From positions 1-30,912 of IMG/VR virus record IMGVR_UViG_3300042478_001291: DNA of 30,912 bases, one strand, 5' to 3'. Below are positions 6-20,200 of the stretch, one piece after another. This DNA comes from a virus. The notes below the pieces were generated by a model. The model was not told where the DNA came from. It did not search any database and worked only from the letters and a program-made list of their open reading frames with translations. A program made the translations under genes and the position numbers. The stretch's first letter is position 1. Every line of letters begins with the position of its first letter.

Positions 6-28
6 GGTGGTATCCATAGGACACCGCC
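6..28. repeat. GGTGGTRTCCATAGGACAC hairpin, copy 1
   Basis: Core at 6-24 matches 1656-1674 with one change. It folds as GGTGGTATCC / GGACACCGCC around ATA with one mismatch and one wobble. It lies at the window edge, about 130 bases beyond the last - strand ORF. Confidence 0.45.
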
Positions 29-689: not shown

Positions 690-720
690 TATTATTCGTA
701 CAAACACACAATTTATTCAA
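690..720 (-). promoter_or_regulatory. phage promoter element P1
   Basis: One of eleven 31-bp elements. On the - strand it reads TTGAATAA, 14 variable bases, then CGAATAATA. TTGAAT resembles a -35 box and AATAAT a -10 box, with an 18-bp spacer. It precedes the operon beginning at 670. Confidence 0.8.
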
Positions 721-730
721 AACTTTTTTA

Positions 731-1078
731 CTAATCCCGATCATATCTACTTGGTTTACGCATAGCATTGCCATGCTCATGAATGAAATCATCAATGCCT
801 TGTGCTTCTTCGTTCTCAAACTCTCTATCTTCAAGCATTTTTGCTACTGCTTGACAACCATCTAAGATCCTACAGTGTAAGTAGTTAGGATAAAGCCCAG
901 TGTGACTATCTACATACCATCCCCATTCAAACTTTTCTTCCCATGATGTAACTTTGAAAGTATTCGACTTCGTGTCATAATCAACGCCCACATTATATTC
1001 CCTGCCATTAAGCAGGAGTGGTGGCATATGCTTGCGAAACTCGGCAAAATTCTCAACTTCGTGAATGATACTGGACAT
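731..1078 (-). CDS. hypothetical phage protein (115 aa)
   Basis: Unrecognised, acidic protein starting MSSIIHEVENFAEFRK. I chose the ATG at 1078 because GGAGAAAG precedes it at normal distance. The longer frame to 1108 would translate the conserved AACACTAAC leader shared with neighbouring units. The middle has an aromatic-rich segment (WEEKFEWGWYVDSHTG) and the C-terminus is hydrophilic (NAMRKPSRYDRD). The promoter-like element P2 (1113-1143) lies 35 bases upstream. It stands alone between two promoters, so it is probably monocistronic. Function unknown. Confidence 0.8.
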   Translation of the reverse strand: MSSIIHEVENFAEFRKHMPPLLLNGREYNVGVDYDTKSNTFKVTSWEEKFEWGWYVDSHTGLYPNYLHCRILDGCQAVAKMLEDREFENEEAQGIDDFIHEHGNAMRKPSRYDRD

Positions 1079-1112
1079 TTTTCTTTCTCCGTTAGTGTTA
1101 GTTCTCATATCT

Positions 1113-1143
1113 TATTATTCGTACAAACTTACTTTTTATTCAA
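1113..1143 (-). promoter_or_regulatory. phage promoter element P2
   Basis: 31-bp element, TTGAATAA-like box (here within an A-rich run) to CGAATAATA, same spacing as P1. It is followed by an AACTAACACTAAC leader and the gene starting at 1078. Confidence 0.8.
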
Positions 1144-1160
1144 AAAAATCTTTTTTATTT

Positions 1161-1331
1161 TTACCACCCTTGGCACTCTTCTTGCCTATCTTGTATTACC
1201 TTGCAATACTCTTGAGCTTCCTCCAAAGATTTAAACTCTTCCTCAATTTCCTCAATTTCCATCGTTTCAACGATCCAGTGACCACCAGCATCGTAATTCG
1301 CTAAAGCCCAATCGTAAATTTCTTTCCCCAT
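1161..1331 (-). CDS. small acidic hypothetical protein (56 aa)
   Basis: Protein starting MGKEIYDWALANYDAGGHW, followed by a Glu-rich helix (METMEIEEIEEEF-type) and a tail with CKVIQDRQEECQGW. The ATG at 1331 has AAGGA seven bases upstream. A longer start at 1367 would again translate the conserved ACACTAAC leader, so I prefer 1331. Preceded by promoter element P3. The fold looks like a small alpha/beta domain of the kind seen in phage accessory proteins, but no family is recognised. Confidence 0.75.
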   Translation of the reverse strand: MGKEIYDWALANYDAGGHWIVETMEIEEIEEEFKSLEEAQEYCKVIQDRQEECQGW

Positions 1332-1371
1332 CGTTCTTTCCTTTTCGTTAGTGTTGTTGTCTTCCATACTC

Positions 1372-1402
1372 TATTATTCGTTTGAACTCTAAAATTATTC
1401 AA
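1372..1402 (-). promoter_or_regulatory. phage promoter element P3
   Basis: 31-bp element ending CGAATAATA on the - strand, with TTGAATAA at its upstream end. It precedes the gene starting at 1331. A GTWWWAC-type site lies 22 bp upstream of it (1424-1441). Confidence 0.8.
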
Positions 1403-1423
1403 AAGTTTTTTAAATTATTTTTA

Positions 1424-1441
1424 ATTATACTAAGTTATACC
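1424..1441. promoter_or_regulatory. GTWWWAC-type operator-like site 1
   Basis: ATTATAC-TAA-GTTATACC, one of six 18-19 bp sites made of two GTWWWAC half-sites around three bases. It lies 22 bp upstream of promoter element P3, a position suited to a transcription regulator. No protein is known to bind it. Confidence 0.5.
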
Positions 1442-1458
1442 TAATTTTATAAGTCCAG

Positions 1459-1496
1459 CCTCCCCCCATCCCCCCTAGATATTTCTCTAGGAGGCA
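1459..1496 (-). ncRNA. hairpin plus G-rich RNA element, copy A
   Basis: Read on the - strand, an 8-bp stem (CCTCCTAG / CTAGGGGG, loop of eight) is followed directly by ATGGGGGGAGG and a conserved AGGTATAACTTAGTATAA tail. The element starts about 33 bases downstream of promoter element P4 and has a near-copy at 3159-3194 at the same distance from P8. The only ORF is 14 codons, with its G-rich stretch touching the ATG, so I read it as RNA. A leader peptide is the alternative. Confidence 0.5.
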
Positions 1497-1528
1497 AGCT
1501 TATTTTGTATCGATCCTTCTCGATATTA

Positions 1529-1559
1529 TATTATTCGTTTGAAACGCAAAATTATTCAA
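1529..1559 (-). promoter_or_regulatory. phage promoter element P4
   Basis: 31-bp element identical in layout to P1. No ordinary gene follows. The hairpin/G-rich element copy A begins about 33 bases downstream. Confidence 0.75.
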
Positions 1560-1577
1560 AAAAAAATTAAAATAATT

Positions 1578-1596
1578 GGTATAACAAAGTATAACT
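1578..1596. promoter_or_regulatory. GTWWWAC-type operator-like site 2
   Basis: GGTATAAC-AAA-GTATAACT, 19 bp upstream of promoter element P4. Confidence 0.5.
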
Positions 1597-1655
1597 TTGC
1601 AAGCTTTTTGGCAGGGCAAAGACGCTTGCTAGCAAGGCATACCATCAGGAACCTC

Positions 1656-1688
1656 GGTGGTGTCCATAGGACACACCAAGCTTTTTTT
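1656..1688 (+). repeat. GGTGGTRTCCATAGGACAC hairpin, copy 2
   Basis: Stem GGTG(g)TGTCC / GGACACACC with loop ATA, followed on the + strand by AAGC and eight T. It could therefore end + strand transcription. A second copy, differing by one base in the 19-bp core, lies at 6-24, but without the T-run. The function is unclear because neighbouring genes run on the - strand. Confidence 0.5.
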
Positions 1689-1793
1689 TAAAGACTACTT
1701 TTTTCGTTTTCGGTATCTCACCGTGGTTTGCCCCTTAAAGTAGTAAACAGACCTATCGTTTAAACTTAATACATTTTTCTTTCCCTCTTGTTG

Positions 1794-2039
1794 TTATATT
1801 ATATTATTCGTACTAGGCCCGATATTATTCAAAAAATAATCCCAATTCTTTTTAAAATCTGTATGCAGATATCGCATACAAGTTTGGGCAATGTTACGAT
1901 ATCCAACAATTTTGGCAACAACCTTTACTCTTGCCATATTGCATACCTTGCAATAGTGGCGTTGAAATATGTTTCCATCATCATCGGTATCTTGCCCTAG
2001 ATTTTGCCACTTACCATGATTGCAATTCTTAACCTTCAT
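1794..2039 (-). CDS. zinc-ribbon-like hypothetical protein (81 aa)
   Basis: Protein starting MKVKNCNHGKWQNLG, with Cys6, His8, Cys30 and Cys33 (HYCKVC) spaced as in a zinc-binding ribbon. The rest is basic and shows no known domain. AAGGAAAG precedes the ATG at 2039. It lies 36 bases downstream of the GP88-like gene, separated by a GGTCAC/GTGACC hairpin, so both are probably transcribed from P6. Its last 11 codons contain promoter element P5 in full (LNNIGPSTNNI is the translated promoter). Zinc binding is inferred from spacing only. Confidence 0.8.
   Translation of the reverse strand: MKVKNCNHGKWQNLGQDTDDDGNIFQRHYCKVCNMARVKVVAKIVGYRNIAQTCMRYLHTDFKKNWDYFLNNIGPSTNNII
1802..1832 (-). promoter_or_regulatory. 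phage promoter element P5 (inside a coding end)
   Basis: 31-bp element lying entirely inside the 3' end of the gene at 1794-2039, keeping both conserved boxes and the exact length. It would transcribe the structured, gene-poor stretch below 1790. Confidence 0.75.
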
Positions 2040-2059
2040 TTTACTTTCCTTTTCTTTAT

Positions 2060-2076
2060 GGTCACAATATGTGACC
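2060..2076. promoter_or_regulatory. GGTCAC/GTGACC inverted repeat
   Basis: Perfect 6-bp inverted repeat with a 5-base centre, overlapping the stop codon of the GP88-like gene and about 20 bases before the next start. It could be an RNA hairpin tuning the downstream gene, or a protein site. There is no T-run, so it is not a standard terminator. Confidence 0.45.
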
Positions 2077-2759
2077 TAGTGATAGATATAGGCCACATTG
2101 TTGACATTCTTATCCCAACATTTACGGCAATCGTTGCAGTTTACCTTGCTTGCACCATTGAAAGCTTCAAGGCTTGCAGGGCAAATATTCTCATGACGAT
2201 CATCGGCATTAACTGGTGTTCTTATTGCAGTGCTTGTGGGCAATCCTAGCCCCTTGCTAGGCACTTGATCGACCATGTACATACTTGGCCTAACTGTAAA
2301 ATTCTTGGCAAATTCGCCATGTATAGCTAAGTATTCCCGAACCATGCCATGTTCTTTAGTTGGTAACCAGAATTTAACTTCTGGCAGGGCAAGAGCAATC
2401 TCATTCATTGCCACTAACATATCTAGACTTTGAACATCGCCACTTGTAAACCACCTAAAGTATGCATTAGACTTATCTTTCATGTGCTTATATTTCTTGG
2501 CTAGTGCTTTAATAAAAGCTTGCTTCCAAGACTCCAAGTCTTCTAGTTGACCTATCCTAACATCATCGGCTTTTTTCTTGTTGCCAAAAAGGTATCTACC
2601 TTTAAGGGCATAACATCCCTCACATATACTACCCTTAACATCGACTAGCTTGCTTCCAGTCTTGCATTGTTTAGCTGGTAAATCCCAACTAATCCAAGGC
2701 ATTTTTTCAGTTTGTGAGAAATTTATTTCTAATGGCTTGATAACTTCTAAACTTATCAT
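2076..2759 (-). CDS. GP88-like phage protein
   Basis: 227-residue protein whose N-terminus (MPWISWDLPAKQCKTGS ... GSICEGCYALKGRY) matches my recollection of the phage 'gene product 88' family, first described in mycobacteriophages and of unknown biochemical role. Cys32, Cys46 and Cys49 form one cluster, and Cys193, Cys208, Cys211 and Cys214 (NCNDCRKCW) a second, suggesting bound metal or an iron-sulphur centre. Aromatic and charged motifs lie between (YFRWFTSGDVQS, WLPTKEHGM). The start at 2759 follows AAGGAAAGTAAG. P6 lies 37 bases upstream. Probably cotranscribed with the zinc-ribbon-like gene. The family call is from memory of the motif; metal binding is inference. Confidence 0.75.
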   Translation of the reverse strand: MISLEVIKPLEINFSQTEKMPWISWDLPAKQCKTGSKLVDVKGSICEGCYALKGRYLFGNKKKADDVRIGQLEDLESWKQAFIKALAKKYKHMKDKSNAYFRWFTSGDVQSLDMLVAMNEIALALPEVKFWLPTKEHGMVREYLAIHGEFAKNFTVRPSMYMVDQVPSKGLGLPTSTAIRTPVNADDRHENICPASLEAFNGASKVNCNDCRKCWDKNVNNVAYIYH

Positions 2760-2795
2760 CTTACTTTCCTTGTGTTAGTGTTACTTGCTATACTC

Positions 2796-2826
2796 TATTA
2801 TTCGTTTCAACTTTCAAATTATTCAA
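2796..2826 (-). promoter_or_regulatory. phage promoter element P6
   Basis: 31-bp element. Its -35-like TTGAATAA contains the stop codon TGA of the upstream acidic gene (823 stop region, 2823-2825). It precedes an AACACTAACAC leader and the GP88-like gene. Confidence 0.8.
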
Positions 2827-3017
2827 AACTTTTCACAATTATTTTCAAATTCTTCAAGTAGTGCTTGCTCACATTCAAACTTATCGATCATCCTTGAAGT
2901 TAATTCTTCAAGATCAAATTCTTCAATTTCTTGACAAGTAGTTGGCATAAGCACTTCCCAGTTGGGTTCAATATTTTCATCATCGATCACAATTTCAAAA
3001 TCAGAATCATCATTCAT
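2823..3017 (-). CDS. small highly acidic protein (64 aa)
   Basis: Protein starting MNDDSDFEIVIDDENIEPNW and ending ALLEEFENNCEKF. Asp and Glu make up roughly a third of residues, with very few basic ones. Very acidic small phage proteins often mimic DNA or bind host enzymes (for example Ocr or Ugi-type inhibitors), but no such family is recognisable here, so that role is only a hypothesis. AAAGGA precedes the ATG at 3017. P7 lies 43 bases upstream, with a CACTAG-containing leader. The stop codon sits inside P6. Confidence 0.75.
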   Translation of the reverse strand: MNDDSDFEIVIDDENIEPNWEVLMPTTCQEIEEFDLEELTSRMIDKFECEQALLEEFENNCEKF

Positions 3018-3059
3018 TTTACTTTTCCTTTTCTCTAGTGTTAGTTATCCCTTATACTC

Positions 3060-3090
3060 TATTATTCGTTTTAACTTACAATTTATTCAA
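3060..3090 (-). promoter_or_regulatory. phage promoter element P7
   Basis: 31-bp element with TTGAATAA and CGAATAATA at standard spacing, upstream of the acidic 64-residue gene. A GTWWWAC site lies about 30 bp upstream. Confidence 0.8.
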
Positions 3091-3120
3091 ATAAAAATAA
3101 AATTATTTTAAATATATTTA

Positions 3121-3138
3121 GTAATACTAAATTATACC
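3121..3138. promoter_or_regulatory. GTWWWAC-type operator-like site 3
   Basis: GTAATAC-TAA-ATTATACC, 30 bp upstream of P7, equivalent in position to site 1 in block A. Confidence 0.5.
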
Positions 3139-3158
3139 AAATTAAATTAGGGCAGGCT

Positions 3159-3194
3159 CCCCCCATCCTCCCTTAGTTGTTCACTAGGGGAGAA
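3159..3194 (-). ncRNA. hairpin plus G-rich RNA element, copy B
   Basis: On the - strand a 10-bp stem (CTCCCCTAGT / ACTAAGGGAG, loop GAACA) is followed by GATGGGGGGAGCCTGCC and a TGGTATAATTTAGTATTA tail. The stem sequence differs from copy A, yet pairing, the G-rich tail and the distance from the promoter (about 35 bases) are kept. A 27-codon ORF starting at the same ATG shares MGG and YNLV with the copy A ORF, which is the main reason not to exclude a peptide. Confidence 0.5.
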
Positions 3195-3229
3195 GATTTT
3201 TATTAGGTTAATCTCCAACCTCTCTATAG

Positions 3230-3260
3230 TATTATTCGTTTAAACTGTAAAATTATTCAA
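3230..3260 (-). promoter_or_regulatory. phage promoter element P8
   Basis: 31-bp element matching P4 in box sequence and spacing. It is followed by a GGTT/AACC mini-hairpin leader and the RNA element copy B, not by a gene. Confidence 0.75.
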
Positions 3261-3288
3261 ATAAAAATAAAAATATTTTGAGATAATT

Positions 3289-3307
3289 AGTATAACAAAG
3301 TAATACC
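3289..3307. promoter_or_regulatory. GTWWWAC-type operator-like site 4
   Basis: AGTATAAC-AAA-GTAATACC, 28 bp upstream of P8. Together with site 5 it forms a pair about 40 bp apart, centre to centre. Confidence 0.5.
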
Positions 3308-3328
3308 AATTTTTGCTTTGATAGTAGT

Positions 3329-3347
3329 GGTAATACAAAGTAATACC
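3329..3347. promoter_or_regulatory. GTWWWAC-type operator-like site 5
   Basis: GGTAATAC-AAA-GTAATACC. It overlaps the outer edge of stem-loop element 1, so DNA binding and RNA folding may compete for the same sequence. Confidence 0.5.
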
Positions 3348-3384
3348 TCGGTAAGCCCGCTAGTCTTGGTAAGACTTGCAGGTT
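3344..3384. repeat. structured intergenic element 1
   Basis: One of three related elements (also 4246-4287 and 4691-4731). Shared layout on the + strand: ACCT, a short AAGCC segment, an inner stem with a TTGGT-like loop, then AGGT or GGGT closing the outer pair. Here the inner stem is AGTCTT/AAGACT, extended by GC/GC, and nine T follow on the + strand. It lies in the 3' region of the unit containing 3457-3744. Confidence 0.5.
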
Positions 3385-3456
3385 TTTTTTTCTTGGCCTA
3401 TCGGCCGGGCTTTCTCTTCGAGAAATCCATCGAGGGGCTTTCGCCCCCCTTCTTTC

Positions 3457-3549
3457 TTATTTGTTCATATAGGCTATCGCCTGATATAAACAGCTTGAAT
3501 ACACAATCAGGCCAAACAAGAGTAGCATATTCATTTGTTCAATGGACAT
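3457..3549 (-). CDS. small single-pass membrane peptide (30 aa)
   Basis: ORF starting 4 bases after the stop of the upstream 63-residue gene. AGGGGGG lies about eight bases before the ATG at 3549. The sequence begins MSIEQMNMLLLFGLIVYSSC and continues LYQAIAYMNK, which is one hydrophobic helix flanked by polar ends. The strong ribosome site and tight spacing support translation. A GC-rich hairpin with a GAAA loop follows 9-20 bases after its stop and may stabilise or end the transcript. No family is known. Confidence 0.6.
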   Translation of the reverse strand: MSIEQMNMLLLFGLIVYSSCLYQAIAYMNK

Positions 3550-3552
3550 GGC

Positions 3553-3744
3553 TTATGCCCCCCTCTTGGCTAATTCAGCCTTGTAAACACTAATCTGATC
3601 ATAGTATTTATTAGGGTTGATGTTAAGCTTGATACATTCCCGACAATCGTCAATACTATATCGCAAGGATGCTACTGTCATGGCCTTGGCCTTTTTAGCT
3701 TCCACCAACCAATTGCAAACAAAGGGATCATAACTATTATTCAT
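3553..3744 (-). CDS. hypothetical phage protein (63 aa)
   Basis: Protein starting MNNSYDPFVCNWLVEAKKAK, followed by SLRYSIDDCRECIKLNINPNK and a basic end (ELAKRGA). Predicted mostly helical, with three Cys (C10, C34, C37 approximately) that could form a disulphide or bind metal. I chose the ATG at 3744, which has GGAGAG at good distance. The upstream ATG at 3759 overlaps that ribosome site. P9 lies 43 bases upstream. Followed closely by the 30-residue membrane peptide. Function unknown. Confidence 0.75.
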   Translation of the reverse strand: MNNSYDPFVCNWLVEAKKAKAMTVASLRYSIDDCRECIKLNINPNKYYDQISVYKAELAKRGA

Positions 3745-3786
3745 CTTACTACTCTCCATGTTAATGGTTAAACTCTCTTGCTATAC

Positions 3787-3817
3787 TATTATTCGTAACA
3801 ATCACAACTTTATTCAA
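3787..3817 (-). promoter_or_regulatory. phage promoter element P9
   Basis: 31-bp element, TTGAATAA to CGAATAATA. It precedes the unit 3744-3457. Confidence 0.8.
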
Positions 3818-3837
3818 AAAAAACTTTTTTTATTTTA

Positions 3838-4089
3838 TTAGTCGTGGATTACTCCATCGACTATATACCTTAGACTATAAGCCGATATCGTTTTTTCTCC
3901 ATGATGGTTACCTTCATTGTATGATACTAATATATAGTATCCATTCTTAGACTTAGCTATTCGCTCTAGTGTACCGAACCTAAATCCATCTACTTTACTA
4001 TCGGCTTGACTATACTTATTAATGCTTATTCGCTTACCGATATTTTCAGAAAAAACGCCCGATACAGTACCATTTTCAATCTTAATCAT
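3838..4089 (-). CDS. hypothetical beta-rich protein (83 aa)
   Basis: Protein starting MIKIENGTVSGVFSENIGKR, with alternating hydrophobic strands (FRFGTLERIAKSKNGYYILV) and a His/Tyr-containing segment (NEGNHHGEKTISAYSLRY). The pattern suggests a small SH3-like or beta-barrel domain, an inference from strand spacing only. AAAGGA precedes the ATG at 4089. P10 lies 58 bases upstream. It appears monocistronic, its stop lying 21 bases before P9. No family recognised. Confidence 0.75.
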   Translation of the reverse strand: MIKIENGTVSGVFSENIGKRISINKYSQADSKVDGFRFGTLERIAKSKNGYYILVSYNEGNHHGEKTISAYSLRYIVDGVIHD

Positions 4090-4146
4090 CTTATCTATCC
4101 TTTACTTTTTATCCTTAAGGTTTAACATTGTGTTTCCCTTATGCTA

Positions 4147-4177
4147 TATTATTCGTTTAAACTTAGAATTTATTCAA
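4147..4177 (-). promoter_or_regulatory. phage promoter element P10
   Basis: 31-bp element at standard spacing. A 22-bp sequence starting ATTAAGATAAA and ending ATATCCAATT (4205-4226) lies 28 bp upstream and recurs at 4641-4662 upstream of P11 with one change. Confidence 0.8.
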
Positions 4178-4204
4178 AACAATTTCAAAATATTTTAAAA
4201 ATCT

Positions 4205-4226
4205 ATTAAGATAAACATATCCAATT
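4205..4226. repeat. 22-bp direct repeat, copy 1
   Basis: Matches 4641-4662 at 21 of 22 positions. Both copies lie about 20-30 bases on the promoter side of a structured element (2 and 3), so repeat plus stem-loop form a duplicated composite of about 85-90 bp. Confidence 0.55.
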
Positions 4227-4245
4227 AGACTATGGGGTATGGGCA

Positions 4246-4287
4246 TACCTTCCCCAAGCCGACTATCTTGGTTAAGACAGTGGGTTC
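4246..4287. repeat. structured intergenic element 2
   Basis: Same layout as element 1: ACCT ... AAGCC, inner stem ACT.TCTT / AAGA.AGT around GGTT, outer closing GGGT. The inner stem sequence differs from elements 1 and 3 while pairing is retained. It lies 24 bases after the stop of the 58-residue gene. Confidence 0.5.
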
Positions 4288-4310
4288 TCATTTGGTCTTG
4301 GCCTCTTGGC

Positions 4311-4487
4311 CTATATCTTTTTTTCGTATTCATAAAACTTTTCGTACTCTCTAATAATTTCTTCTTGCTTAACAGGAAATCCATATGCAGCCCTTAATAC
4401 ATGGGTTTTTCTACGATCCGAAAAGTGATTATGAAACGCACAAAGACCAATGCCAGCAGCCAAAACTCGCATATTAAATTCTTCCAT
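4311..4487 (-). CDS. small hypothetical protein (58 aa)
   Basis: Protein starting MEEFNMRVLAAGIGLCAFHN, then FSDRRKTHVLRAAYGFPVKQ and a charged C-terminal helix rich in Glu, Tyr and Lys. AAGGGGAT lies upstream of the ATG at 4487, and P11 lies 44 bases upstream with an ACAACACTAG leader like those of other units. The competing frame 4163-4384 on the same strand runs through the structured element and has no ribosome site, so I prefer this one. Function unknown. Confidence 0.75.
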   Translation of the reverse strand: MEEFNMRVLAAGIGLCAFHNHFSDRRKTHVLRAAYGFPVKQEEIIREYEKFYEYEKKI

Positions 4488-4530
4488 TTTACCATCCCCT
4501 TTTTTCTAGTGTTGTTTCCCTTACCTATCA

Positions 4531-4561
4531 TATTATTCGTTGTAACTTAGAATTTATTCAA
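4531..4561 (-). promoter_or_regulatory. phage promoter element P11
   Basis: 31-bp element at standard spacing, upstream of the 58-residue gene, with GTWWWAC site 6 thirty bp upstream. Confidence 0.8.
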
Positions 4562-4779: not shown

Positions 4780-5280
4780 CTAGCTTGCCATCTTTGCGAT
4801 GGCCTTGGCATGTAAACCGAAAGCACTCCCTTGGCTAATATCCAGTTTGCGAGCAATTTCATCGAAGTTATATCCCTTCGATCTTAAGGCCAAGATATTG
4901 TGTTCTGTAAAGTCGATAATACCAGCATCGTAAGCATCTCGAAGATGGAAAGTTAAAACTTCCATTGTATTAGTAGGTCGGCCTTGCAATTCAATATTAT
5001 TACCATTTTCAGAATCTTCGAACTTGGTAATAGTAACTGTTTTACCTTGACGCTTATTTGTATTCAAACGCCTATTTTCGTCAATAAGAATATTCTTAAA
5101 ACAAGGGTATAAAATAGTATTAAACTTATTACCAAGACTAGGGTTGAAAAGTTCATTGGCCTTGGTAACGGACATAATAGCTAAATCTTCAAAATCGGTA
5201 TAACCAAGGCGTTTGGCCTTACGGCTTAACTTGTCGATGCTAGCATAAAATAATTCTACTGAAATTTTCAATTCGCTCAT
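4780..5280 (-). CDS. sigma-like transcription factor
   Basis: 166-residue protein with the layout of a minimal sigma factor. Residues 28-72 (YTDFEDLAIMSVTKANELF ... KFNTILYPCFKNILIDENRR) match sigma region 2, including the acidic DFEDL start and a helix leading to a basic end. Residues 125-162 (LALRSKGYNFDEIARKLDIS) match the region 4 helix-turn-helix. A short linker without region 3 is usual for small phage or ECF-type sigmas. It probably directs RNA polymerase to phage promoters. AAGGA precedes the ATG at 5280. Upstream lie an inverted repeat and the degenerate P12. Its hairpin at 4742-4765 closes the unit. Sigma family resemblance is by motif; target promoters are inferred. Confidence 0.75.
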   Translation of the reverse strand: MSELKISVELFYASIDKLSRKAKRLGYTDFEDLAIMSVTKANELFNPSLGNKFNTILYPCFKNILIDENRRLNTNKRQGKTVTITKFEDSENGNNIELQGRPTNTMEVLTFHLRDAYDAGIIDFTEHNILALRSKGYNFDEIARKLDISQGSAFGLHAKAIAKMAS

Positions 5281-5367: not shown

Positions 5368-5398
5368 TATTATTCGACATAATCAAGAAAATATTTTA
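5368..5398 (-). promoter_or_regulatory. degenerate promoter element P12
   Basis: CGAATAATA is intact but the upstream TTGAATAA box is degraded to an A/T-rich sequence. It lies before the sigma-like gene. It may need an activator or be read by a different polymerase holoenzyme. Confidence 0.55.
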
Positions 5399-5712: not shown

Positions 5713-5859
5713 ATGAACAAAGATGAGCCAATTGAAGTAGAGACAAGAATTAAGGTGATAGCAGGGTGTGTATTACCAGAACCAGAACTGTTAGCCCCAA
5801 CACCCCCCATTGAACAAGCGTTAGCCAGTATCGAAGAGAACATCATAAAAGATGAATGA
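5713..5859 (+). CDS. small acidic hypothetical protein (48 aa)
   Basis: Protein starting MNKDEPIEVETRIKVIAG, with a Pro-rich centre (PEPELLAPTPP) and an acidic end. I prefer the ATG at 5713, preceded by a weak GGTGA. The same frame opens at 5626, directly after the GC stem, with no ribosome site. The stop overlaps the start of the sigma-like gene at 5852 by eight bases, supporting coupled translation. Unrecognised. Confidence 0.55.
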   Translation: MNKDEPIEVETRIKVIAGCVLPEPELLAPTPPIEQALASIEENIIKDE

Positions 5860-6445
5860 TTATCCGCATGGATTAAAGGAGGAAGATGTTATATTAGCTT
5901 TGAAGAAAGCAATTAACCTTCTTGCTCCAACATTTACTTTCGGATATTACGATGTGGAAGACATTAGGCAGGAAGCTTACATATTTGGACTTGAATCTTT
6001 ATCTCGCTATGACCCATCTCGCCCCTTAGAAAACTTTCTTTATTCGCACATTAAAAACAGACTTATAAATTTTAAGAGAGACAAGTATCATAGAACAGAT
6101 CCCCCATGTAAACTATGTCATGATTCAAACAAATGTTCAGATGGCAATTACTGCGAAAAGTATAAGGCATGGAAGAAAAGGAATTCATCTAAGCAAAATT
6201 TAATGCGACCCTTAGATATACAAACAATCTCAGACGATACAGAAAAGAACGCACACGGAAAACAATCTGTTGTAGATGAGGCGAACATCTCTGAGTGTTC
6301 TAATCTAATAGACTTGCACCTTCCTGTTGAACTTCGTTCAATATATCTTAGAATTAAAGCTGGTGAGTCTGTTCCCAAAATAAAAAAGCAAAGAGTTGAA
6401 CAAGCAATTAAGGAGATCCTCAATGGCAGGAAAGAAGCTGAATAG
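5852..6445 (+). CDS. second sigma-like factor with Cys4 insert
   Basis: 197-residue protein. Residues 33-77 (YDVEDIRQEAYIFGLESLSR ... FLYSHIKNRLINFKRD) are a clear sigma region 2: DIRQEA corresponds to the usual D-(L/I)-x-Q-E-(A/G) motif, followed by an aromatic DNA-melting helix. Residues 86-101 then carry Cys86, Cys89, Cys95 and Cys101 (CKLCHDSNKC), a probable zinc knuckle. Residues 157-190 are a short C-terminal helical segment weakly like region 4. As first regulator of the structural operon it is a candidate late sigma factor. It overlaps both neighbours. A T4 gp55-like role is an analogy, not a demonstrated homology. Confidence 0.75.
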   Translation: MNDYPHGLKEEDVILALKKAINLLAPTFTFGYYDVEDIRQEAYIFGLESLSRYDPSRPLENFLYSHIKNRLINFKRDKYHRTDPPCKLCHDSNKCSDGNYCEKYKAWKKRNSSKQNLMRPLDIQTISDDTEKNAHGKQSVVDEANISECSNLIDLHLPVELRSIYLRIKAGESVPKIKKQRVEQAIKEILNGRKEAE

Positions 6446-7202: not shown

Positions 7203-8244
7203 GTTGGCACTAGTGTTTGGGGCGACAGGACAAGATGGTTCGTATCTCTGCGAAAGCCTTTTGGCAAAAAAGTACAATGTCTTAGCGGTAGCAAGACGGT
7301 CGTCAATAGATAATGGAGCAAGGCTTAATGGTTGTTCAGATCACAAAAACTTCACTCTCTTAAGAGGCGATGTCTGCGATCAATCATTTGTCTTCTCCAC
7401 TATCTATAAATATACCCCTACGGAAATCTACAATCTGGCAGCACAGAGTCATGTGGGCGATTCGTTTACGCAACCGCATCACACGATTGATGTGGATTTG
7501 AAGGGAACGCTTAATGTCTTGGAAGGGATTTTGAATTTTTCAAAATCTTCAAGACTATATCAGGCATCAACAAGTGAAATGTATGGTTCATGCTTTTCTT
7601 ATTATATTCCTATTGGTGGAATTAGAAAAGAATCTAAAACTGCTATTAGCAGAGAAGATTTTATTAATAAAGATTGTTTTCAAGATGAAGACACTTTAAT
7701 GGTTCCAAACTCTCCATATGGTGTGGCAAAACTGGCATCCCATAATTTGGTTAAAATTTATAGGGAGTCTTATGGCTTGTACGCCTGTTCGGGCATTCTC
7801 TTCAATCACGAATCGCCTAGAAGGGGAGAGTTGTTTGTAACTAGGAAGATAACCTCTTGGATAGGTAAGTATGTTAATAAATTAACTAAAGATAAATTAC
7901 AACTTGGGAATATAGATTCTCTGCGTGATTGGGGTCATGCAAAGGATTATGTTGAAGCAATGCGTTTAATGCTTCAGTTAGACAACCCACAAGACTTTGT
8001 TATAGCTACTGGATCTACCTATTCTGTAGAAGATTTTTTAAACAAATCATTTGAAGCTGCTGGACTTGGCGATTGGGAAAAATATGTCACATTAAACAAG
8101 TCACTGAAAAGACCATTTGAGGTTGATGCTCTTCGTGGTGTATCAACAAAGGCAAGGGAAGTTCTTAAATGGAAACCACACTATAATTTTGATCTCCTTG
8201 TAAAAGAGATGGTCGAAAGCGATATCAATGGACATAAAGTATAA
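7195..8244 (+). CDS. gmd: GDP-mannose 4,6-dehydratase
   Basis: 349-residue short-chain dehydrogenase of the GMD family, which converts GDP-mannose to GDP-4-keto-6-deoxymannose, the precursor of GDP-fucose and related sugars, using bound NADP. The Rossmann motif GATGQDGSYL lies at 9-18, NLAAQSHV at 80-87, the catalytic Thr/Ser-Glu motif ASTSEMYG at 124-131, YGVAK (Tyr175, Lys179) and NHESPRRGE at 204-212, all expected for GMD. Between ASTSEMYG and SPYG an insert of about 25 residues lengthens the usual loop. AAAGGA precedes the ATG. It overlaps both neighbours in the packaging operon, an unusual place. It may alter host surface sugars or supply a virion or DNA sugar; this is inference. Confidence 0.9.
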   Translation: MNKLALVFGATGQDGSYLCESLLAKKYNVLAVARRSSIDNGARLNGCSDHKNFTLLRGDVCDQSFVFSTIYKYTPTEIYNLAAQSHVGDSFTQPHHTIDVDLKGTLNVLEGILNFSKSSRLYQASTSEMYGSCFSYYIPIGGIRKESKTAISREDFINKDCFQDEDTLMVPNSPYGVAKLASHNLVKIYRESYGLYACSGILFNHESPRRGELFVTRKITSWIGKYVNKLTKDKLQLGNIDSLRDWGHAKDYVEAMRLMLQLDNPQDFVIATGSTYSVEDFLNKSFEAAGLGDWEKYVTLNKSLKRPFEVDALRGVSTKAREVLKWKPHYNFDLLVKEMVESDINGHKV

Positions 8245-13939: not shown

Positions 13940-15396
13940 AAGAATTTGCAATTTTTAAGTCAGAAATACAAGACGGACTTAAAGAAAAAATTATTTCTAG
14001 CATGTCTATTTCTTCTACATGTGAATTAGAAATTTGCGATCCTTTCCTATTAAATAAGCCACTTAGGGCAGTAGCAGAAAATAAAAACCAGATGGATCTT
14101 CATTACTTGAAATCTATTTTAGTTACTACTGGCTGGAATAAAAACGATGATGTGTTTGATAAAGCAGAAGTTTGGACTGCAAGAAATACTCCATCTGATA
14201 AGCCATTTAATTATGAGCATGATCAAAAACAAATAATTGGACATATTACTGGATCTAAAGTAATTGACGAAGATGGCAATGATGTGGCAGAAGGAGTGAG
14301 TGTTGATGAACTACCTAAAAAGTTTCACATCTTGACTTCTGCTGTACTTTACAAATTTTGGGAAGATCCAAAAAAACAAGAAGAGATGAATGATATAATC
14401 TCTGGCATAGCAAACAACAAATGGTTTGTTTCTATGGAAGCATTATTTAATAATTTTGATTACGCTATGGATGATGGCGTTACTGCCAAAGTAATTGCTA
14501 GAAATGAAAAGACTGCTTTTCTAACTAAACATTTACGAGCATATGGCGGTAATGGTGTCTTTAATAATATCAAAATAGGAAGGGTTTTAAAGAACATTGT
14601 CTTCTCTGGAAAGGGGCTTGTACGCAAGCCAGCCAATCCAGAAAGTATTATTTTTGATGAAACGGAAGCTTTTATTACAAGTTCGGTGTACCAATTAGAT
14701 GAGACTACAAAGTCAAAGGAGATCATTATGAGTATTGAAGAAGAAAAAATCGAAAAGCAAATTGCAGAAGTTACTGAAGAAGTAGCTGCTGCTTTTCCTC
14801 CAGAAGAAAAGCCCGAAGAAGAAAAAGAAGATACTGTTGAAGATCCAGCAGTTAAAAAAGAAGAAAAGATGGGCGAAGAAGAAGCTAATTATATGGAAGA
14901 TAAAAAGAAAATGATGGCTGAATCTGAAGCCATGAAAAAACAACTTGACATGGTAGTTAATGAACTTAACAACATGAAAAAAGAAAAAATGCAAGCTAAT
15001 CGTGCAGAAATGGTAATTGAAAAGTTTGGCATGAATAAAGATGAAGCTACTTTGGTAGTTTCTGCATTAAGTGCTCTTAATGACGAATCTTTTGCCAGTG
15101 CAGTTACTATGCAGTCTGATTACTTTAATAAGAAAATGTCTGAATATAAATCTGGTAAAACTGTTAATGAAGAAGCACCAGCAAAAGATCCAGAAGAAGA
15201 CAAAAAGAAAGCTCCAAGTGAAAATGTAGAAATTAGTGAAGATCCAGCAGATGTTAAAGCATCTGCATCTATCTTGGATACTGCTGAAGTTAAATCAGAT
15301 GCTGCTCTTGCAACTTCAGAAAGTTCTAATGGTGTAAAGCAAGTAGCATCGCAAATTGCGTCTTATTTTGGTTTAGAAACATCGGCCACAGAGTAA
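13936..15396 (+). CDS. prohead protease fused to scaffold
   Basis: 486-residue protein in two parts. Residues 1-245 form a protease-like domain with candidate catalytic His95 (FNYEHDQKQIIGHI) and Ser166 (KWFVSMEALF), the spacing and surroundings expected of herpes/HK97-type prohead proteases, and a GKGLVRKPANPES motif common in this group. Residues 265-486 are a charged, Glu/Lys-rich helical segment like an internal scaffold. Such enzymes cut the scaffold after capsid assembly. AGGAGAAA precedes the ATG. A strong ribosome site inside the frame starts the scaffold separately (see 14728). Catalytic residues are proposed, not confirmed. Confidence 0.7.
   Translation: MKEFAIFKSEIQDGLKEKIISSMSISSTCELEICDPFLLNKPLRAVAENKNQMDLHYLKSILVTTGWNKNDDVFDKAEVWTARNTPSDKPFNYEHDQKQIIGHITGSKVIDEDGNDVAEGVSVDELPKKFHILTSAVLYKFWEDPKKQEEMNDIISGIANNKWFVSMEALFNNFDYAMDDGVTAKVIARNEKTAFLTKHLRAYGGNGVFNNIKIGRVLKNIVFSGKGLVRKPANPESIIFDETEAFITSSVYQLDETTKSKEIIMSIEEEKIEKQIAEVTEEVAAAFPPEEKPEEEKEDTVEDPAVKKEEKMGEEEANYMEDKKKMMAESEAMKKQLDMVVNELNNMKKEKMQANRAEMVIEKFGMNKDEATLVVSALSALNDESFASAVTMQSDYFNKKMSEYKSGKTVNEEAPAKDPEEDKKKAPSENVEISEDPADVKASASILDTAEVKSDAALATSESSNGVKQVASQIASYFGLETSATE
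14728..15396 (+). CDS. internal in-frame scaffold product (222 aa)
   Basis: ATG at 14728 is codon 265 of the protease gene and is preceded by AAAGGAGATCATT, one of the best ribosome sites of the operon. The product starts MSIEEEKIEKQIAEVTEEVA, is rich in Glu, Lys and Ala, and contains long predicted coiled coil (residues 50-120) and a hydrophobic/amphipathic C-terminus (VASQIASYFGLETSATE). Nested scaffold genes within protease genes are known from lambda (C/Nu3). A short scaffold would be made in excess over the protease fusion. Translation from this start is predicted only. Confidence 0.6.
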   Translation: MSIEEEKIEKQIAEVTEEVAAAFPPEEKPEEEKEDTVEDPAVKKEEKMGEEEANYMEDKKKMMAESEAMKKQLDMVVNELNNMKKEKMQANRAEMVIEKFGMNKDEATLVVSALSALNDESFASAVTMQSDYFNKKMSEYKSGKTVNEEAPAKDPEEDKKKAPSENVEISEDPADVKASASILDTAEVKSDAALATSESSNGVKQVASQIASYFGLETSATE

Positions 15397-17276: not shown

Positions 17277-20200
17277 ATGCACTTCCAAAGAAACATAACA
17301 AGAATACAAGACCAAGACGACTTTTCTGGAGTACCTACCTCTGGAGAAGCCGTTTTTTTTGATGGTGAAAATTTTATTACAGCAGATATTACTGGGTATC
17401 AAGGATCGCAGGGTAATCAGGGTTCACAAGGAAACCAAGGATTTCAAGGCATAACTGGTTTTCAAGGTTTAACTGGAGCAGGAAGTCAGGGTGATCAAGG
17501 TCTAATTGGATTGCAAGGCTTTCAAGGAACAATTGGAAATCAAGGGTTACAAGGTAATCAAGGCAATCAAGGATTTCAAGGAACAATTGGAAATCAAGGC
17601 TTACAAGGTTATCAAGGCATTCAAGGCAATCAAGGTAATCAAGGCAATCAAGGATTCCAAGGAAGACAAGGGTTTCAAGGCCATCAAGGTGATCAGGGTT
17701 GGCAAGGAGATCAAGGATTTCAAGGAAGACAAGGATTTCAAGGTCACCAAGGAGATCAAGGTTTTCAAGGAAGACAAGGATTTCAAGGAGAACAAGGATT
17801 ACAAGGCATAACTGGCTTTCAAGGAATTGAAGGCGTAGCTGGAATAGATGCATTATGGAACTTCACAGGTGCTTATAATGGCGGTGCAGCATATGCCGTA
17901 GGTGATATAGCAACCTATTTAGGGCAAACTTGGTATCGTGTAAATTCTAATGGTGGGAATGTTGGTGATTCCCCCATAGAAGGAACTTTTTGGACATTGA
18001 TTTCTGCAAAAGGAGATCAAGGAGATCAGGGAGATCAAGGCAATCAGGGTGACCAAGGCGAACAAGGTTTTCAAGGCGAACAAGGCTATCAGGGTGGCCA
18101 AGGCGAACAAGGTGATCAAGGACAACAAGGATTTCAAGGTTATCAAGGAAATCAAGGAAATCAAGGAAATCAGGGTTATCAAGGATTTCAAGGTGAACAA
18201 GGACTGCAAGGAAATCAAGGAGATCAAGGATCACAAGGTTTAAATGGAAACTTTGGTGGTGTCACAGTTGAATACCTTATAGATACTCTTAATTATACGA
18301 TAAACGATCCAGGCGATAACTATATAAGATTTAACAATTCCTCTCTTCCATCAGCTACACATGTCATTATTGATGATAATCCAAACAACTCAACCATTGA
18401 TCTTTCTTTATATTTAAATACTATTTCTGCATCAACAAGCACGATGAAGGGGCACTTTAAATTATCTAAGAAAAATGATTCTACAGTATTTGCTCTTTAT
18501 GCAATTAGTTCTGCAACAGAAGAAGAACCAAGTTTTTTTGACATTATTATTTCTTATCTATCTGGAAGTGGAACATTTTCAAATAATGATGAAGTTCTTT
18601 TAACTTTTGCAAGAACTGGAGATAAGGGAGATACTGGCAATCAAGGCAATCAAGGCAATCAAGGCTATCAGGGATTTCAAGGAGATCAAGGATTTCAAGG
18701 AAACCAAGGGGAACAGGGTTCTCAGGGCGATCAAGGATCGCAAGGTAATCAGGGCGAACAGGGATTTCAAGGTGATCGTGGAATTGGTGCATTGTCTTGG
18801 ACATACAAGGTAAACACAACAACTCTTACAGATCTTGATCCAACTAATGATTATATAAGTTTTAATGCTGATCCTTTTACTTCGGCCACTCAAGTTAAAG
18901 TAGATGATAATCCATACGGAATAAATACTACTTTACATGATTTATTCTTAAGTATTCAGAGTGGTTATTTAACTTTAACAGATCAAGCCAATCCTTCAAC
19001 ATATGTTACTTATCAAATAACTTCTTGTGTAGATGGTACTTCAACAAACGATACTGAAGATGGAAGTTATGTAATATTTAATGTGGCACTAGTTAGTACA
19101 TACGGAGTAATAAATAACGAAGATTTTGTTACTCTGTCTATTGGACTTGTTGGTTCACAAGGATCGCAAGGTAACCAAGGTTCACAGGGAAATCAGGGTG
19201 AGCAAGGAAATCAAGGTTTTCAAGGCAATCAAGGCTTACAAGGAAATCAAGGTTTTCAAGGAAACCAAGGAAATCAAGGCGATCAAGGATCGCAAGGCAA
19301 TCAGGGTGACCAAGGAAATCAAGGCACAACACCTTTAATTTGCACTACGCAAAACACAGGTGAATATTATTTTCAAGCAGTAGGTGAAAATTACTATCAA
19401 AGCCCTATAGCAACAGGATTGGCATTTGCTGCTGGACAAATACTGTCTGTATACGCACCCACTGATAATATTATACAGTACATGAGAATAACTTCTTATA
19501 ACCCCACAACAGGGGATATAGTTGCAGTCGTTACACATTCTTTAAGCCCAGGATTTAAAACATATAACACGCTTTCAATTTGTCTTGCAGGAAAAATTGG
19601 CGAGCAAGGTTCACAGGGTGATCAAGGTTTTCAAGGAGAACAGGGTTCCCAAGGCAATCAAGGCGACCAAGGTAACCAAGGATTACAAGGCGAACAAGGA
19701 AATCAAGGAGATCAGGGAAATCAAGGCAACCAAGGAGATCGGGGATTTCAAGGAAATCAAGGTGATCAAGGATCACAAGGTAATTATGGAGAACAAGGTT
19801 CTCAGGGTGATCAAGGTTCGCAAGGAAACCAAGGATTTCAAGGCAATCAAGGATCAGATGCATTATGGAATTTCACAGGTGCTTATAGCGGTGGTGCATC
19901 ATACTCCATAGGTGATGTAGCAACTTACTCAGGTGAAACTTGGTATCGTGTTGGTGCTAATGGTGGTAATGTTGGAGATATTCCTTCGCCAGGATTCTGG
20001 ACATTGATTGCTCAGAAAGGCGAACAGGGATTACAAGGATACCAAGGTGAACAAGGTTCACAAGGTAATCAAGGATTTCAAGGGCAACAAGGTTTTCAAG
20101 GAAGTCAAGGTGACCAAGGATATCAAGGAACATCTGGTTCTGGAGTAACTATTCAAGGATCAGAAACATGGGAAAACATATTTAACAATGAAACTTCTGG

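Follow-up and report, generated by a model that had tools for sequence, protein, structure and literature searches.

Introduction

Phage-encoded sigma factors are known; most often they control middle or late genes. Those of SPO1 and T4 redirect the host polymerase to middle or late genes, while early genes use host sigma70. Here we report on a 31-bp element that recurs in a 30,912-nucleotide stretch of an uncultivated phage (positions 1 to 30,912 of IMG/VR virus record IMGVR_UViG_3300042478_001291, the whole stretch being called the window below), and on a small sigma factor, sigA, encoded close by. We consider it highly probable that the elements are bipartite promoters read by the host core RNA polymerase together with sigA. 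As in SPO1 and T4, a phage sigma factor would thus redirect the host polymerase; unlike in those phages, the genes concerned are of an early type.

Among the systems compared, the nearest tested precedent seen here is SaPh711_gp47, the sigma factor of phage 7-11, which in the excerpted report serves eight late promoters of the form GTAAtg-(16)-aCTA (PMC8948821). On that partial account, the two systems share a phage sigma factor with region 4, the host core polymerase (its use by sigA being presumed) and a bipartite promoter, and in both the promoters are not found in relatives with another sigma factor. They differ in that about 25-30 promoters, rather than eight late ones, are seen here on an early-type strand, that ORF-less RNAs (without an open reading frame, ORF) are included, and that the sequences are not the same; by eye, both the boxes and the spacing of the window elements depart from the 7-11 late promoter. 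The sigma factor gp36 of phiEco32 likewise governs a class of phage genes, from promoters given in the same excerpt as tAATGTAtA (PMC8948821), but those promoters have a single element and gp36 is without region 4, whereas two boxes and a sigma4 domain are found here. In a survey available in part, 86.6% of 4,350 phage genomes were without a sigma factor (PMC9429907), a figure by which phage sigma factors are not rare. None of the literature matches listed was recognised as dealing with this motif or phage group.

Sequence, spacing and distribution of the element

The window contains eleven elements, all on the minus strand and each reading TTGAATAA (box 1), 14 variable bases and CGAATAATA (box 2) with no mismatch; the eleven coordinates reported in the initial annotation were all correct. 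Scanning the window with this pattern returned 11 sites on the minus strand and none on the plus strand, and a reversed-pattern control returned none. Eight elements are followed, after 19-57 bases, by an ORF start that has a Shine-Dalgarno-like word. These are 690-720 (ORF 518-670, starting 19 bases downstream), 1113-1143 (ORF 731-1108, likely start MSSIIHE 34 bases downstream), 1372-1402 (ORF 1161-1367, likely start MGKEIYD 40 bases downstream), 2796-2826 (the GP88-family gene at 2076-2759, minus strand; PF17338, 1e-23), 3060-3090 (ORF 2823-3017), 3787-3817 (ORF 3553-3759, likely start MNNSYDP 42 bases downstream), 4147-4177 (ORF 3838-4089) and 4531-4561 (ORF 4311-4487). The other three, 1529-1559, 1802-1832 and 3230-3260, have no ORF behind them and precede, respectively, the stretches that we call RNA B, RNA A and a second, RNA B-like stretch.

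The window is identical (100%) to positions 10942-41853 of G001, a phage genome of 141,809 bases (141.8 kb) whose termini carry a 127-base direct repeat. The spacer had been described as never varying, and this holds genome-wide: allowing up to 2 mismatches, the minus strand of G001 has 29 sites at spacer 14, one of them a terminal-repeat copy, and no other spacer between 4 and 25 gives more than 1. The plus strand has a single site at spacer 14, and 20 Markov-1 shuffles of G001 yielded no site in 18 cases and one site in 2. With up to 3 mismatches the counts were 34 on the minus and 1 on the plus strand, against 2 and 1 for the reversed control. The minus-strand elements run through 0-16.3 kb and about 124-142 kb, two zones that are contiguous if the genome is closed. 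Among the 2.9 million contigs of IMG/VR, 35 stretches had the exact pattern, and clusters of at least five sites came from seven contigs only (G001-G007). The wider search that had been proposed finds the motif elsewhere in G001 and in relatives, among them G002-G007.

A profile of the 23 sites with at most 1 mismatch revealed further conserved positions, namely GTT at 16-18 (partly), A22 and TA at 35-36, and an A/T-rich run upstream of the element. When the context of 28 minus-strand sites of G001 was examined, an ORF start with a Shine-Dalgarno-like word lay within 90 bases of 21 sites and was absent from 7. The initial annotation had named equally frequent occurrence on both strands, within coding DNA, as evidence that would count against promoters. 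With regard to strand the opposite is seen (29 sites versus 1); with regard to position, 10 of the 28 sites overlap a mechanically called ORF of at least 60 amino acids (aa). Two of these ten, 99097 and 103022, lie in long ORFs remote from the module; the remaining eight are in ORFs of 79-202 aa, and five of those ORFs are on the opposite strand. Element-like matches in long ORFs, at G001 positions 96863, 99097, 103022 and 108598 (0-3 mismatches), were taken as chance or coding constraint, and were kept in the counts wherever the mismatch limit admits them. Operator-like repeats that appeared, by eye, upstream of some elements were dropped because no 7-mer stood out beyond A/T-rich words. The sole plus-strand element of G001 (7987-8017) lies 21 bases from a minus-strand element (7935-7965), and this divergent pair is kept in G002 and G006.

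From sequence, spacing and strand bias, the 31-bp elements are very probably promoters. Box 1 would be the -35 element and box 2 the -10 element, and the expected start of transcription, some 6-9 bases past AATAAT, would be close to the conserved TA. The similarity to a sigma70-type promoter (TTGAAT-18-AATAAT) that had been pointed out did not withstand a comparison with shuffled sequence. For direct reading by host housekeeping sigma70 in this register, 9 of 12 bases match the consensus; however, the best score around each site was reached by 39-130 of 200 local shuffles, the element itself supplies that best match at only 7 of the 11 window sites, and none of the 11 sites offers TTGACA-16..18-TATAAT above chance. 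A spacer length without variation and a first -10 position without T also argue against sigma70, as does the change of box 1 to CTAAAT or GTAAAT in relatives, while sisters that lack sigA have TTGACA/TATAAT. Direct reading by sigma70 is for these reasons extremely improbable. The other part of the initial proposal, a promoter-like element that has its dedicated recogniser, is the interpretation that fits best, given a sigma70 fit that does not exceed shuffles and the use of sigma70 promoters by sigA-less relatives.

A two-domain sigma factor upstream of the elements

The proposed recogniser, sigA (4780-5280, minus strand; 166 aa, sigma2-sigma4), is encoded 219 bases upstream of the last element (4531-4561). 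The window protein alone gave a weak match to phage sigma factors (phrog_351, 1e-5), and its aligned orthologs make the case clear. At E<=0.01, TIGR02937 (sigma70-ECF, extracytoplasmic function) and TIGR02479 were matched in all 11 orthologs, Sigma70_r2 in 10 of 11, Sigma70_r4 in 3 and Sigma70_r4_2 in 2, and the sigA profile matches FliA, SigH and SigW in the PDB. An AlphaFold model (mean predicted local distance difference test score, pLDDT, 73.5) consists of helical domains at residues 8-77 and 105-165 joined by a low-confidence linker (77-104). Its residues 108-166 align to the -35-binding sigma4 domain of SigD (Z 7.8, 1.8 A, 55 residues), and its N-terminal domain to region 2 of sigmaE (Z 7.5, 2.9 A, 76 residues). 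Neither a sigma1.1 nor a sigma3 domain was seen, and the sigma2-sigma4 linker is short, as in the ECF-type layout. By homology, then, sigA appears to be a two-domain, ECF-like (group 4) member of the sigma70 family. In the arrangement that we propose, box 1 would be bound by the sigma4 helix and box 2 by the sigma2 domain, which would also melt it; the strict spacing may follow from there being only a short linker between the two domains. Searches for multisubunit polymerase genes (PF00562, PF04997) found none in G001, G018 and G027, with a control recovered in 14 of 14.

Upstream of sigA itself, positions 5368-5398 (minus strand) hold the same 31-bp frame with an intact box 2 (CGAATAATA) and a degenerate box 1 (TAAAATAT); the corresponding region of G005 also has an intact box 2 and a poor box 1, and that of L166 reads, by eye, TTAAATTA-N14-CGAATAGAT. 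Together these suggest that sigA may activate its own expression. In the relative L060, TTGACA-17-TAATAT is found upstream of sigA, a score reached by 13 of 200 shuffles. The factor could be made early via host sigma70, via its own upstream region with CGAATAATA by self-activation, or both. The leader of the sigA mRNA (window about 5350-5290, minus strand) contains a hairpin-like GATTCTA-CTTTT-TAGAATC that is nearly unchanged in G005, G002, L127 and L062, though their sigA proteins are down to 44% identical.

Co-occurrence of sigA and the elements

A sigA profile search matched 11 of 21 records at E<=1e-57 (G001, G002, G004-G007 and G017-G021), a count that leaves out one match at 0.0078 in a metagenome-assembled genome (MAG). 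All 11 bear elements. Those of G001-G007 are in the TTG form, and G017-G021 have 16, 21, 21, 16 and 3 A-form elements, all on one strand, with none in the control. The looser pattern AATAA-N14-CGAATA gave 26+1 sites in G001, 16 in G017, 21 in G018 and 3 in G021, the reversed control being 0 except for 3 in G018. Conversely, the six sister-lineage records G024-G029 are without sigA and have no AATAA-N14-CGAATA on either strand. G022 and G023 have neither sigA nor elements, but these records begin within 1.6 kb of sigB (see below) and are little informative. Using the GP88-family gene as an independent anchor, the best 80 of 104 loci comprised 18 with sigA and at least two elements on one strand, 62 with neither (one of which, L223, has a single element match) and no discordant locus. 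Searches for new clades with the sigA profile and with L060 sigA gave none; a GP88 alignment added L166, L167 and L174.

These distributions bear on whether a host alternative sigma factor, for example of flagellar/WhiG or ECF type, reads the elements, the phage having borrowed its promoter. In the excerpted sources, the sigma28 (FliA/WhiG) consensus is TAAAGTTT-n11-GCCGATAA (PMC2859248, PMC8325347). Against that partial description, box 2 recalls the sigma28 -10 element with its CG head, box 1 of the clades with CTAAATAA or GTAAATAA recalls the TAAA of the -35 element (L060, L166 and L092; PMC2859248), and region 2 of sigA itself resembles that of FliA. The CG head common to sigma28 promoters may also explain the "fixed CG" remarked on in the initial annotation. 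The fit is only partial, however: the window boxes are, by eye, TTGAATAA and (A)CGAATAA with a 12-base gap, one base longer than in the consensus as excerpted, and sigA has no sigma3 domain that we could see. Moreover, within this phage group the elements are found only with sigA and change with sigA, and the sigA-less sisters use sigma70 promoters. We give a borrowed host promoter a slim chance.

Promoters of shared genes in sigA-less relatives

Strict sigma70 promoters number 14 and 13 on the gene strand of the 20-kb early regions of the sigA-less L137 and L138, and these regions are free of elements; their overlapping parts are identical, so that the two were counted as one phage. In the matching regions of sigA phages the gene strand is devoid of strict sigma70 promoters, and elements number 22, 2, 9 and 3, by a pattern narrower than the one used for the counts in G017-G021. 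The change can be followed at two shared genes. For the first (G001 14494-14700, window ORF 3553-3759), whose ortholog is weakly supported (39% over 49 aa, E 1.5e-5), the promoter is TTGAATAA-N14-CGAATAATA in G001, GTAAATAA-N14-CGAATAAGT in L139 and TTGACA-17-TAGAAT in L138. For the second (29% over 129 aa between L139 and L138, E 2.5e-17), it is GGAAATAA-N14-CGAATAAGT in L139 and TTGACA-17-TATACT in L138, and no clear promoter of its own was found in G001. The GP88 orthologs of sigA phages also bear, upstream, the element form of their own clade.

Many sigma70-type promoters of L138 (G026:12000-31999, minus strand) hold CCGATAAT in the spacer just after TTGACA. Words reading CCGATA with TTG in the preceding 14 bases number 18 of 26 on the minus strand and 0 of 3 on the plus strand. 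This CCGATAAT may be an operator or a second -10 element.

Co-divergence of the boxes with sigA

From one sigA clade to another both boxes differ, and the 31-bp frame is retained. In six phages box 1 is TTGAATAA at 80 of 87 sites (unique within each phage), with starts of TTG at 80 and GTG at 5. It is CTAAATAA at 12 of 16 sites in L060 and 14 of 17 in L166, and GTAAATAA at 9 of 18 in L092; across the 54 sites of four other clades, G at position 3 occurs in none of the 53 matches listed. Spacer 14 was fixed by the search pattern here, and other spacers tested in G001, L060 and L092 were empty or gave single matches. The last three bases of box 2 differ by clade as well (mostly ATA; TAA/TAT; mixed in L166; AGA/AGT; CAT/TAT). 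On the protein side, the six TTG phages, whose sigA proteins are 43-84% identical to that of the window, have GSA(F/H)G as their sigma4 recognition helix. In both CTAAATAA clades, whose sigA proteins are 42% identical to each other, the helix is GRISQIW, and other clades have GYVSQ or STISK. Box 1 changes in step with the sigma4 helix, a correlation over about five clades and not a tally of independent events.

The same comparison bears on a phage activator that would bind two GAATAA repeats and bring in sigma70 holoenzyme at a weak -10 formed by the conserved TAT (35-37). GAATAA is indeed present in both window boxes in a 21-bp register (two helical turns, one face), and the TA at 35-36 is among the conserved positions. 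Other clades do not preserve the repeat, however: their box 1 is CTAAATAA or GTAAATAA and box 2 stays CGAATA, and because the boxes diverge independently the direct-repeat reading was set aside. In L092, a Shine-Dalgarno-like sequence at the position of the shifted start (by eye) also fits reading by a sigma factor better. We regard such an activator as having a very slim chance.

A second sigma-like protein, sigB (5852-6445, plus strand; 197 aa), adjoins the module and could in principle read box 2. Its Pfam matches are to sigma region 2 only, and CCGATAAT words occur in the sigma70 spacers of sigA-less phages that also have sigB. On the other hand, sigB occurs in element-free phages, promoter type does not track its divergence, and the lack of a region-4 match would leave the fixed box 1 unexplained. 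Backbone genes served as a control. In 6 of 8 of them G004, which keeps the promoter form of the window, is less similar to the window than L060 is (sigB 77.0 versus 82.7% identity, portal 78.2 versus 87.9%, terminase 86.5 versus 89.7%, and three others), and it is closer in two, the ERCC4-type nuclease and the major capsid gene. In early genes it is closer in 4 of 4 (sigA 45.4 versus 28.2%, GP88 87.2 versus 69.6%). Promoter type therefore follows the sigA module, and neither sigB nor most backbone genes, and reading by sigB is the least probable of the explanations considered, close to negligible. In G002, G005-G007, L055 and L062, compared over G001 15.7-27.8 kb, sigA is 41-84% identical to that of the window and sigB and the backbone are 93-100% identical; judged from these identities, the early module looks exchanged or fast-evolving in these relatives.

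ORF-less RNAs and other features

RNA A (1640-1801, core 1664-1745, minus strand), behind element 1802-1832, is a conserved structured RNA that was aligned from 7 records including L060 and L092. It has an invariant GTGAGATAC hairpin, and 6 of 16 predicted pairs show changes on both sides. Rfam gave no match at the gathering threshold and none convincing below it. RNA B (1440-1528, behind element 1529-1559) and the RNA B-like stretch (3130-3229, behind element 3230-3260), both on the minus strand, share a GGATGGGGGGAG(C/G)CTG box that is also present in L060 and weaker in L092. By eye, a stem-like repeat, GTCTTACCAAGAC ... GGGCTTA, follows several regulon genes (window about 4740-4680, 4290-4240 and 3390-3350, minus strand), with similar repeats in L060 and L092; from its appearance it may be a terminator or a 3' RNA element.

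Elsewhere in the window, positions 17277-22688 (plus strand) encode an 1803-aa protein with long GxQGxQG collagen-like repeats that, by eye, adjoins tail-type proteins. Compared with 50,697 phage records, portal and sigB had no match, sigA had one weak partial match (E 0.04, 36% of the query), and the GP88 regulon gene had distant relatives in 16. Searching genome contigs with a portal alignment returned five matches, in MAGs labelled Flavobacteriales (2), SAR202, Chitinophagia and Alphaproteobacteria; since these labels are inconsistent, no host was inferred.

Discussion

Several observations weigh against reading of the elements by host core polymerase with sigA. Taken alone, the window sigA falls just below curated cut-offs (PF07638, 20.4 versus 21.1 bits; TIGR02937, 36.3 versus 42.9), a Foldseek search found no PDB match at E<=0.001, the Z values of 7.8 and 7.5 are middling and the confidence of the structure is modest; given the Foldseek result, the sigma fold is argued from profiles and structural alignment. 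Most of the 62 sigA-less GP88 loci belong to distant phages and are a weak test of absence, the phages are related, and some records are identical where compared (G018-G020, L166/L174, L137/L138 and L107/L113). The distinct sigA phages number about ten, in about five clades, and the distinct sigA-less sisters perhaps three. The recogniser could also be a different gene linked in the module, since sigA and the elements occur as a set with the early genes. For the first expression of sigA, the best sigma70-like score in the other eight upstream regions tested was reached by 63-196 of 200 shuffles. Lastly, a search for a single-subunit polymerase was uninformative, its own control matching nowhere.

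On the sigA reading, the factor would, once made, drive one shared regulon of about 25-30 promoters, nearly all on one strand, including the three ORF-less RNAs of the window. Phage sigma factors with bipartite promoters are already known; what seems less usual is a sigma factor set over an early-type module together with several ORF-less RNAs. It is reasonably probable that a lineage of large phages moved a whole early module of host-takeover type, genes and structured RNAs alike, from host sigma70 to a private sigma factor, and that this factor and its 25-30 promoters co-diverged within a fixed 31-bp frame into a natural series of mutually distinct pairs, with the sister lineage still using sigma70 at orthologous genes.

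Because the small-gene module is driven by ordinary sigma70 promoters in sister phages, the change of regulator is traceable gene by gene. With a dozen or more natural sites per phage, the link between the -35 box and the sigma4 helix provides a data set for the specificity code of sigma factors, and the same sigma-promoter set may be useful for orthogonal expression tools. The motif also lets transcription units, including those of ORF-less RNA genes, be called in this phage group. If sigA reads the elements, the phage could run its own gene program on the enzyme of its host.

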